From: Bifidobacterium commune
Lineage (GTDB): Bacteria; Actinomycetota; Actinomycetes; Actinomycetales; Bifidobacteriaceae
Assembly: GCF_900094885.1 (NCBI RefSeq)
Contig: NZ_FMBL01000001.1
Coordinates: 772,867-836,866, forward strand
DNA length: 64,000 nt
Direction of reading: 5' to 3'
Under the pieces are notes generated by a model that searched no databases, was not told the origin of the DNA, and saw nothing but the letters and a program-made list of their open reading frames with translations. Of the stretch, positions 14,704 through 41,281 are shown one piece after another. Every line of letters begins with the position of its first letter. Within the stretch, counting starts at the first letter, position 1. The position numbers were made by a program, and so were the translations under genes.

Positions 14704-14788
14704 AAGTCTACCGTCAAACCGGACGAAACGTTAAGACCTACCAAACAAAAAAATTGTCCCGAAAAGGTCCTATTGTTTCGCATATTGA

Positions 14789-14966
14789 TTATTCGTAGAA
14801 GAGGTCGCTGAACCTATCAGTAACCGTCGCGAGGCGAGATTGCGTCCATGACCGACGGCGAAAGGAGGTTTGGCCGAAATTCCTGAAGTCATTCTGCCTC
14901 AGGGGTTGGGCCCGGATCCAATAGATCCGGGACTGTCACGGGAAACCGTGGAGAGCTGTCGATGAA
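14789..14966 (+). promoter_or_regulatory. Lysine riboswitch (L-box)
   Basis: The stretch carries the conserved core of the lysine riboswitch in order. AGAGGTCGC (14799-14807) and ATCAGTAAC make the 5' part with its loop-E-like region. GGCGAAAGG and GGCCGAAA follow near 14870. Then come GGTTGGGC, GGGACTGTCA, a GGGAAACC-type hairpin loop and TGGAGAGCT, which closes the five-way junction. The outer stem pairs TTCGT with the ATGAA that follows. It lies in the leader of an amino acid permease, so it should turn the permease down when lysine is plentiful. Confidence 0.87.
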
Positions 14967-15048
14967 TGAGCTTGGTGGACTTCTCGCGATGATGCGTGAC
15001 CCTGCCGGCTCCACAAATCATGGCGAGCTCGCCCGATCATCGAACTTC

Positions 15049-15067
15049 TTCCTCATCAAGGGAGGAA
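15049..15067 (+). promoter_or_regulatory. Shine-Dalgarno-sequestering hairpin
   Basis: TTCCTC (15049-15054) is perfectly complementary to GAGGAA (15062-15067), which is the ribosome-binding site of the permease starting at 15071. This suggests that the riboswitch acts on translation start. Confidence 0.55.
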
Positions 15068-15070
15068 CCC

Positions 15071-16621
15071 ATGTCGGTGCAAACCGGCCATACAGGCAAA
15101 AACCAGAACAACAACATCGCGAGCACGCCTGGTAAGAAAACGGCGACACAACACAGTCCGTCTCAATCTGGCGGCGTGCAGCGCAACCTCAAAACACGTC
15201 ACGTCTCGATGATCGCCCTCGGCGGATGCATCGGCACCGGCCTGTTCATGACCTCAGGATCAACCATAGCCAAGGCAGGCCCAGGCGGCGGGCTCGTGGC
15301 CTATATCGCCATGGGCATCATGGTCTACTTCCTGATGACAAGTCTTGGTGAATTGGCCACCAACCAACCGGTTTCGGGCTCCTTCGCCACATATAACGCC
15401 AAATACGTTGACCCTGCCCTAGGATTTGCAATGGGTTGGAATTATTGGTTCAACTGGGCCATCACCGTTGCGGTCGACATCTCCACGGCCGCGCTCCTCA
15501 TCCAATACTGGCTACCTGACACTCCTGGGTGGGTCTGGAGCTTGGTCGTTTTGGGAATCATATTTCTCATCAATGCACTGACCGTGTCGGCGTTCGGCGA
15601 AACCGAATATTGGCTCTCCCTCATCAAGGTCATTACAGTTATCGTCTTCCTCGTTCTCGGATTCGCGATGATCGTCGGCATCATGTATCACCCTGCGATT
15701 GGTCTGGGCAACTTCACCTACAAGGATGCTCCCTTTGTCGGCGGATTTCCTGCCATTCTGAACGTATTTCTCATCGCCGGATTCTCGTTCCAGGGAACCG
15801 AGCTGATCGGCGTGACCGCGGGTGAATCCGAAGATCCCGAACATGCGGTGCCCAAAGCCATCCACAGCGTATTCTGGCGTCTGCTCATCTTCTATATGCT
15901 GTCGATTTTCGTCATCGCGGCCATTATCCCCTACACCAGCCCGAATCTGCTGTCGGCAGCAGACGGCAACATCGCCATGTCGCCGTTTACTTTGGTATTC
16001 CGCCGAGCTGGGCTCGCAGCGGCGGCAAGCGTGATGAACGCCATCGTCTTGACCGCAGTGCTCTCCTCCGCAAACTCAGGCATGTACGCATCGACACGGA
16101 TGCTGTATTCGCTGGCCGAAGAAGGGTATGCGCCAAAGTACTTCGCTCGCACCACCAAACATGGCATTCCGTTGGCCTCCCTACTGGTCACCACAATCAT
16201 CTCGTTGGCGACCTTCGGCTCCTCGATCTTTGGCGAGAAAATATACATGTGGCTTGTCGCAGCCTCGGGTCTGACCGGGTTCATTGCTTGGGTTGGCATC
16301 GCCATCAGCCACTTCCGTTTCCGTCGCGCGTTCATCAGGCAAGGTCACAAGCTTTCCGAGCTCAAGTACCATGCCAAGCTTTTCCCGCTCGGCCCAATCA
16401 TTGCTCTCATCCTGTGCATCATTGTGATCGGCGGTCAAAATATCGACGCCTTCATCAATTGGGATTGGCAGCAGATCGGCATCACCTACATCGGTCTGCC
16501 TCTGGTGCTCATCCTGTATTTCGGATACAAAATCAAGAACCACACTCACATCATCCCCTTGGATGAAGTGGATGTCTCCCCCTCAAAAATTGCAACCGAC
16601 GACAATACTGCGTCGGCATAA
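15071..16621 (+). CDS. lysP: Amino acid permease of the APC family, probably lysine-specific
   Basis: A 516-residue APC-family permease with about 12 hydrophobic helices after a hydrophilic N-terminus of about 45 residues. The first helix carries the family motif IALGGCIGTGLFMTSG, and the substrate-binding loop PVSGSFATYNAKYVDPALGF is typical. SFQGTELIGVTAGESEDP is the conserved helix 6 region. The LysP/lysine-permease branch is suggested by these motifs and strongly supported by the lysine riboswitch upstream. The ATG at 15071 follows GGGAGGA with a 4-base gap; the 25 codons upstream overlap the leader and are rejected. It is a single gene ending at a large hairpin. Confidence 0.88.
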   Translation: MSVQTGHTGKNQNNNIASTPGKKTATQHSPSQSGGVQRNLKTRHVSMIALGGCIGTGLFMTSGSTIAKAGPGGGLVAYIAMGIMVYFLMTSLGELATNQPVSGSFATYNAKYVDPALGFAMGWNYWFNWAITVAVDISTAALLIQYWLPDTPGWVWSLVVLGIIFLINALTVSAFGETEYWLSLIKVITVIVFLVLGFAMIVGIMYHPAIGLGNFTYKDAPFVGGFPAILNVFLIAGFSFQGTELIGVTAGESEDPEHAVPKAIHSVFWRLLIFYMLSIFVIAAIIPYTSPNLLSAADGNIAMSPFTLVFRRAGLAAAASVMNAIVLTAVLSSANSGMYASTRMLYSLAEEGYAPKYFARTTKHGIPLASLLVTTIISLATFGSSIFGEKIYMWLVAASGLTGFIAWVGIAISHFRFRRAFIRQGHKLSELKYHAKLFPLGPIIALILCIIVIGGQNIDAFINWDWQQIGITYIGLPLVLILYFGYKIKNHTHIIPLDEVDVSPSKIATDDNTASA

Positions 16622-38403: not shown

Positions 38404-38480
38404 GTGCGCGCGACAGGATTCGAACCTGCAACCTGCTGATCCGTAGTCAGCTGCTCTAATCCATTGGGCTACGCGCGCAG
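38404..38480. repeat. 77-bp direct repeat containing tRNA-Arg, left copy
   Basis: Identical to 41205-41281. The repeat covers the whole tRNA gene with one base before and two after it; the flanks then diverge. The two copies bracket a decayed surface-protein gene. Confidence 0.9.
38405..38478 (-). tRNA. tRNA-Arg(ACG)
   Basis: The minus strand has acceptor arm GCGCGCG/CGCGCGC, a D arm TAGCCCAATGGATTAGAGC, an anticodon arm GCTGA-CTACGGA-TCAGC with anticodon ACG, and a T loop TTCGAAT. The 3' CCA is not encoded. An identical copy lies at 41206-41279. Confidence 0.96.
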
Positions 38481-41204: not shown

Positions 41205-41281
41205 GTGCGCGCGACAGGATTCGAACCTGCAACCTGCTGATCCGTAGTCAGCTGCTCTAATCCATTGGGCTACGCGCGCAG
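41205..41281. repeat. 77-bp direct repeat containing tRNA-Arg, right copy
   Basis: Identical to 38404-38480. Bases 40878-41204 before it hold no recognised gene. Confidence 0.9.
41206..41279 (-). tRNA. tRNA-Arg(ACG), second identical copy
   Basis: Same sequence and structure as the copy at 38405-38478, including anticodon ACG in the loop CTACGGA. Confidence 0.96.

Follow-up and report, generated by a model that had tools for sequence, protein, structure and literature searches.

A lysine riboswitch was found upstream of a gene for a LysP-type amino acid permease in Bifidobacterium commune, in the window of 64,000 nucleotides analysed here (contig NZ_FMBL01000001.1, positions 772,867 to 836,866). 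We consider it probable that this riboswitch represses the permease at high intracellular lysine, mainly by acting on translation initiation. Computation established the membership of the aptamer in its class, the identity of the gene, two alternative pairings in the leader, and a lineage-specific match between a pyrimidine box next to the ribosome site and one arm of the aptamer.

The aptamer and the permease gene

The two elements of the locus are the following.

14791-14966, plus strand: lysine riboswitch aptamer (RF00168), matched by cmscan over model positions 1-182 of 182
15071-16621 including the stop codon, plus strand: LysP-type amino acid permease of 516 aa (NF008094, PF00324, PDB 9eyd)

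The initial annotation had recognized a lysine riboswitch by five conserved sequence blocks, all of which are present in the order claimed. The Rfam covariance scan of the window agreed with that call, giving a full-length RF00168 match of 114.7 bits (E 6.9e-30), far above the gathering score of 30. Judged by its sequence, the aptamer is a genuine member of the lysine riboswitch class and is predicted to bind lysine. P1 can be drawn beyond the six columns of the Rfam model, with 14791-14801 pairing to 14956-14967 through ten standard pairs, one bulge, and one mismatch. The aptamer ends 104 nt before the permease start codon, and the match is the only one to RF00168 in the B. commune genome, which is about 95% complete. 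The sole other Rfam matches in the window were two tRNA genes, a tRNA-Arg(ACG) pair on the minus strand (38405-38478 and 41206-41279) that lie about 2.7 kb apart and have identical Rfam scores and alignments.

The permease scored 661.5 bits against NF008094 (PRK10836), which we take to be the LysP model. This was the top match among 29 NCBIfam families; since the score lies under the curated cut-off of 735, the protein is termed LysP-type rather than formally LysP. The permease also matched the Pfam family AA_permease (PF00324) with 456.5 bits, and its best match among solved structures was PDB 9eyd_A, 'Lysine-specific permease' (575 bits, residues 38-505 of 516). These protein matches together with the riboswitch upstream make lysine the likely substrate, lysine transport being a prediction from sequence. 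The same substrate had been proposed earlier from the riboswitch, and the Rfam, NF008094/PRK10836 and 9eyd matches all favour it; the riboswitch thus adds to the support that comes from protein similarity. The gene is flanked on the minus strand by a YchF-type ATPase gene upstream and by genes for a peptidase S51 protein and proC downstream. A permease paralogue, 69% identical, lies at a separate locus of the same genome (G000:C3:146095-147561), and no RF00168 match was found before it at E 0.1.

Distribution of the riboswitch

RF00168 was detected in 49 of 189 Bifidobacteriaceae genomes, belonging to 3 of 16 genera, with scores of 91-117 bits. A LysP-type gene lies downstream in 47 of these 49 family loci, the exceptions being L039 (described below with the terminators) and L045 (G122:C44:13193-13370). 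The aptamer of L045 is cut in its 3' part and followed by C-terminal LysP sequence, which reflects either a deletion or an assembly fault. Among the riboswitch-bearing g5 genomes, 19 of 21 carry another LysP-like permease gene directly 3' of the riboswitch-controlled one (e.g. G138:C1:1687795-1691009); its product shares 71-74% identity with the window's permease.

Outside the family, a phylum sample of 396 genomes yielded 19 with a match, namely B. commune and 18 related to it at the level of the phylum only. B. commune was the only match from its own order and class in this sample, to which stricter filters applied and for which the number of genomes of that order or class is partly given. 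We also collected named rows, i.e. the best matches to the B. commune permease in named genomes. Among the matches listed, 76 of 80 LysP relatives have RF00168 upstream and four (L085, L101, L119, and L137) do not, the upstream sequence of L137 comprising only 158 nt.

A further conserved element precedes the aptamer.

14754-14776, plus strand: shared upstream block and possible promoter, with a -10-like TATTGT at 14771-14776, recognized by eye

On comparing by eye the upstream sequences of 15 family loci, a block like TTGTCNCGAAAANNCCTATAGT was seen to be shared before the aptamer, most clearly in the subclade of the window; it ends in a TATAGT-like hexamer among related loci. From its sequence it is a possible promoter, and transcription is expected to start near 14782; a simple scan detected no sigma-70 promoter in the leader region. 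Its TTGTC stands too near the hexamer to be a usual -35 element and may be a regulator site. We also considered a leader peptide, a 57-codon frame starting at ATG 14962 after GGAGAG in the 3' part of the aptamer. This candidate was dropped because the frame is not kept in L025, where the corresponding ATG, read by eye, meets a stop after nine codons.

Two mutually exclusive predicted pairings of a pyrimidine box

The leader elements that are predicted to take part in switching are listed in order of position.

14785-14789, plus strand: UUGAU, a possible extension of the ON helix through AUCAA at 15055-15059 (enforced fold)
14798-14805, plus strand: GAAGAGGU, 5' strand of P1 and core, a candidate alternative partner of box 15044-15051 (8-bp complementarity; arm-swap test)
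14959-14965, plus strand: UCGAUGA, 3' strand of P1, a candidate alternative partner of UCAUCGA at 15037-15043 (enforced fold; significant in the segment scan)
15037-15043, plus strand: UCAUCGA stretch of the platform, a potential trap for the 3' strand of P1 (enforced fold)
15044-15053, plus strand: two-faced pyrimidine box, of which 15044-15051 would pair with the aptamer arm (ON) and 15046-15053 with the ribosome site (OFF)
15060-15067, plus strand: ribosome-binding site GGGAGGAA, recognized from the sequence (GGAGG with a 5-nt spacer to the ATG) and from its predicted accessibility

The ON pairing joins GAAGAGGU (14798-14805) to ACUUCUUC (15044-15051) over 8 bp. The OFF hairpin, in its favoured register, joins UUCUUCCU (15046-15053) to GGGAGGAA (15060-15067), also over 8 bp, and includes two G-U pairs, at positions 15049 and 15053. 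Six bases of the box are common to both, so the two pairings exclude each other. The initial annotation had described a shorter 6-bp hairpin between TTCCTC and GAGGAA and had placed GAGGAA four bases before the ATG. This register (UUCCUC 15049-15054 with GAGGAA 15062-15067) can form, but its pair probability is only 0.02-0.03 and the 8-bp hairpin is preferred; the spacing between GAGGAA and the ATG at 15071 is in fact three bases (CCC). The broader proposal of a translation-blocking platform fared well in the models, which predict a mostly paired ribosome site when the aptamer is enforced and also when the platform is folded alone.

Constrained folding of the leader separated the two states. 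With aptamer helices P1-P5 enforced, the ensemble energy was -117.1 kcal/mol and the probability of being unpaired was 0.00-0.08 at 15060-15066 and 0.30 at 15067. Enforcing P2-P5 alone gave -121.2 kcal/mol and left the site hidden (0.00-0.08, and 0.34 at 15067). Enforcing the helix between arm and box, which is an anti-P1 helix, gave -122.2 kcal/mol and raised the unpaired probability to 0.99-1.00 at 15063-15067, while 15060-15062 remained paired (0.01-0.04). Accessibility was unchanged when this helix was combined with P2-P5 (-120.2 kcal/mol), and UCGAUGA (14959-14965) paired with UCAUCGA (15037-15043) in the resulting fold. Because the latter pairing sits directly beside the box, both strands of P1 are captured together. 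The unconstrained fold had an energy of -124.2 kcal/mol and a hidden ribosome site (0.00-0.10 at 15060-15066), and the anti-P1 helix was not formed in the unconstrained minimum-energy fold of the window leader. The ON state must therefore depend on co-transcriptional folding, on ribosomes, or on energies outside the model.

These alternatives suggest how the switch may operate. Lysine binding would hold P1 (14791-14801 with 14956-14967) closed, leaving the box at 15044-15053 free to pair with 15060-15067 and to hide the ribosome site. When lysine is scarce, the stretch 15037-15051 would capture both strands of P1, UCGAUGA by UCAUCGA and GAAGAGGU by ACUUCUUC; the box could then no longer pair with the ribosome site, which would permit translation of the permease. 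Lysine binding by the aptamer, the direction of regulation, and translation as the principal output, in preference to mRNA decay or Rho, are inferred.

Arm, box, and ribosome site among relatives

Grouping by common 7-mers placed 47 family loci (without L039 and L045) into 13 platform clusters. Across these clusters, and with kinship ignored, the arm fitted the 26 nt before the ribosome site better than it fitted shuffled sequence (Fisher p 4e-6) and better than it fitted other platform windows (p 3e-5). For the cluster of the window by itself the p values were 0.10 and 0.075, and the arm-to-box match in this lineage is only suggestive. When the whole platform was shuffled, the arm fit was not significant in the window's lineage (p 0.37), and values below 0.05 were obtained in just four of the 13 lineages (L009, L019, L024, and L049); the region adjoining the ribosome site was more informative for arm fit than the platform as a whole. 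The same kind of arm test in Lactobacillaceae gave p 2e-6 on the medians of 12 groups (56 loci, kinship ignored), one of which has no genus name; seven Lactiplantibacillus loci were dropped as they were missed by the arm pattern. Lentilactobacillus was negative in this test, with a median of 0.40.

Arms were then exchanged among 39 representatives, this time including Lactiplantibacillus. On average an arm fitted its own box better than did the arms of others (p 5e-5), and the median p was 5e-4 with one representative per genus or lineage (26 groups), both values being floors of the permutation counts with kinship ignored. For nine of the 39 boxes, that of the window among them, no other arm beat the box's own arm; half or more of the other arms fitted better for nine of 39. 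In a scan with 13-nt segments, only the two P1 strands stood out strongly (p 3e-4, which is the floor, and 0.002 at an overlapping position), and five further positions reached p 0.02-0.05, again with kinship ignored. The invariant AGAGG of the aptamer resembles a ribosome site, and a box directed against the ribosome site therefore fits AGAGG in part by nature. By the same token, one such box can serve both partners, and this likeness may explain an easy origin of such platforms.

Hiding of the ribosome site varied among relatives. With the platform folded alone, a measure without shuffled control, 10 of the 13 clusters had a hidden site (P free at most 0.12); the remaining ones were L005 (0.25), L049 (0.31), and L010 (0.68). 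The site was not hidden in the largest platform cluster, which comprises 13 loci of the B. asteroides type (P free 0.68). Blocking the box freed the ribosome site more in 12 of the 13 clusters, with L010 as the exception. A shuffle-controlled measure was applied to the 13 named Bifidobacteriaceae rows. Six rows of the B. asteroides type hardly differed from their shuffles (0.64-0.67 vs 0.63-0.76), and the site was partly hidden in L084 (0.35 vs 0.63) and L071 (0.41 vs 0.66). These two are the same loci as L002 and L031, which had given 0.01 and 0.03 in the platform-alone fold; counts of hidden sites shift in this way because the stretch and the motif scored differ. Among lactobacilli, the site was more hidden than in shuffles in 15 of 15 Levilactobacillus rows (0.05-0.27 vs 0.32-0.53), in 3 of 3 Bombilactobacillus rows (0.00-0.04 vs 0.34-0.47), and in Ligilactobacillus hayakitensis (0.00 vs 0.25), and often not more hidden in Lentilactobacillus, Lactiplantibacillus, and part of Secundilactobacillus. 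Start codons of relatives were assigned by an automatic rule, and a few doubtful picks (e.g. L113 and L145) were kept in. The platform alignment of the window's subclade (A2) was too gappy upstream of the box, and its rows too unequal in extent, for base pairs to be counted on it.

The box/arm match bears on a different coupling, in which the ribosome-site hairpin would act through mRNA decay or through Rho termination in an untranslated leader instead of an anti-P1 switch. Since free folding does not yield the anti-P1 helix, there is room for such a coupling, and the E. coli lysC riboswitch is described, in the part of PMC5584792 considered here, as acting both on ribosome access and on RNase E cleavage. 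A lineage-specific match between box and arm is nevertheless hard to explain without direct pairing of the two, and we regard decay or Rho coupling as unlikely, though it is the strongest competitor of the two-way box.

Terminator-like sites in lactobacilli and bifidobacteria

We scored as terminator-like any hairpin of -8 kcal/mol or better that had a U run behind it and lay no more than 90 nt from the aptamer. Among the matches listed, 58 of 60 lactobacillar leaders have such a site, compared with 3 of 60 after shuffling. None was found by this test in the 13 named Bifidobacteriaceae leaders, and one of three Bombilactobacillus leaders passed, through the ribosome-site hairpin of L075. A stricter test for an ungapped stem was passed by 38 of 60 lactobacillar, 0 of 3 Bombilactobacillus, and 0 of 13 named Bifidobacteriaceae leaders among the matches listed. 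Three of the 49 family loci, which overlap in part with the 13 named rows, passed the -8 kcal/mol test (L005, L023, and L039), and only L039 has a full U run; relaxing the threshold to -6 kcal/mol raised the number to 8 of 49. The leader of L039 (G186:C1, about 1050979-1051154, minus strand, a g15 genome) has a clean terminator with a stem of 9 bp and a U run (-15.8 kcal/mol) and is the one clear transcriptional case in the 49 family loci. Its riboswitch precedes lysA (TIGR01048, 457.6 bits, cut-off 297.9).

For the window, no terminator was predicted between 14650 and the permease start, the sole predicted site being at 16291, inside the gene; the window's locus (L001) is also absent from the rows listed by the -8 kcal/mol test. 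A transcriptional switch, in which lysine would let an intrinsic terminator form before the permease, could appeal to the near-universal terminators of the lactobacillar relatives listed and to L039 within the family itself. Against it speak the lack of any terminator-like site in the window leader and the counts for the named and family leaders, where L005 and L023 have no proper U run, and we judge it very improbable for B. commune. High G+C content makes U runs rare, so that the absence of terminators is weaker evidence here than it would be in lactobacilli. With no convincing terminator, the bifidobacterial lysP leaders look translation-only, and a fair reading is that some lactobacilli use two outputs and bifidobacteria use translation alone. 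Such a contrast provides a testable case of how the same aptamer may act on transcription in some hosts and on translation in others. Loss of the lysine response in a degenerate riboswitch is hardly credible for a full-length, high-scoring aptamer with its conserved blocks and with 49 family matches of 91-117 bits, there being nothing specific in its favour beyond the cut aptamer of G122 (L045) as a sign that decay may occur in the family.

Descent of LysP

A careful tree was built from 49 LysP rows, comprising the window, 14 of the 47 LysP-bearing family loci, and 34 of the 80 named rows, and was rooted at the midpoint. Under this root, 15 bifidobacterial rows, including that of the window, grouped with three Bombilactobacillus rows (support 100/100). 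Many of the named hosts in this group presumably come from bees. Four other Bifidobacteriaceae rows (two g1 and two g15) grouped with Ligilactobacillus hayakitensis (100/98). The remaining Lactobacillaceae formed one side of a branch in 0 of 200 bootstrap trees; it follows that Bifidobacteriaceae plus Bombilactobacillus never formed one side either. The same two groups appeared in a quick tree of 91 rows, four of 95 having been left out. The Bombilactobacillus proteins (L074, L075, and L082) are 82-84% identical to the window's LysP over the best segment, despite belonging to another phylum. Bombilactobacillus and the bifidobacterial rows meet at an open fork, and the tree gives no direction of transfer.

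The two groups suggest, from protein sequence, at least two entries of LysP into Bifidobacteriaceae. We propose, tentatively and at somewhat less than even likelihood, that a cassette of the lysine riboswitch and its lysP gene passed between lactobacilli and Bifidobacteriaceae on two or more occasions, and that each bifidobacterial cassette came to lack the terminator found in nearly all sampled lactobacillar versions and relies on the two-faced box, a second module present in some lactobacilli as well. If this is true, a dual switch acting on both transcription and translation was simplified in parallel, in bifidobacterial hosts, to one acting on translation alone. Reduction of the platform after transfer is plausible.

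Comparison with known systems

The initial annotation had called an actinobacterial lysine riboswitch less familiar. For the class in general the remark is fair, but such cases were reported in 2017 and 49 of 189 family genomes carry the riboswitch. The 2017 survey, in the part considered here, names B. asteroides PRL2011 and G. vaginalis ATCC 14019 as the only actinobacterial species with a lysP/gabP lysine riboswitch, notes one before another transporter in Mobiluncus curtisii, and argues that the lysP riboswitch was transferred from lactobacilli (PMC5584792). The B. asteroides and G. vaginalis cases agree with B. commune in aptamer class, permease type, and family; the same part of the survey describes no platform for them, and B. 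commune is another member of this set (PMC5584792). Among the open-access papers listed, judged by titles and abstract openings, none deals with the platform of the lysP riboswitch in bifidobacteria.

The lysP riboswitches of Lactobacillaceae (e.g. Levilactobacillus, among L083-L109) have the same aptamer class and a homologous permease, and the one from Lactobacillus plantarum has been put to use, according to the portion of PMC10974012 consulted. In several of these genera the box before the ribosome site fits the aptamer arm, as in the window; they differ in the terminator-like hairpin found in 58 of 60 of the matches listed, which the window leader lacks. The E. coli lysC riboswitch resembles the proposed switch in controlling access to the ribosome site (PMC5584792, in the part considered), but it serves a biosynthetic gene and involves RNase E cleavage. 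The riboswitch-lysP arrangement is thus already known in Bifidobacteriaceae, and the B. commune locus is an ordinary further case of it; what is added here, from structure modelling and the arm/box comparisons, is a likely two-way box switch as a model for the platform.
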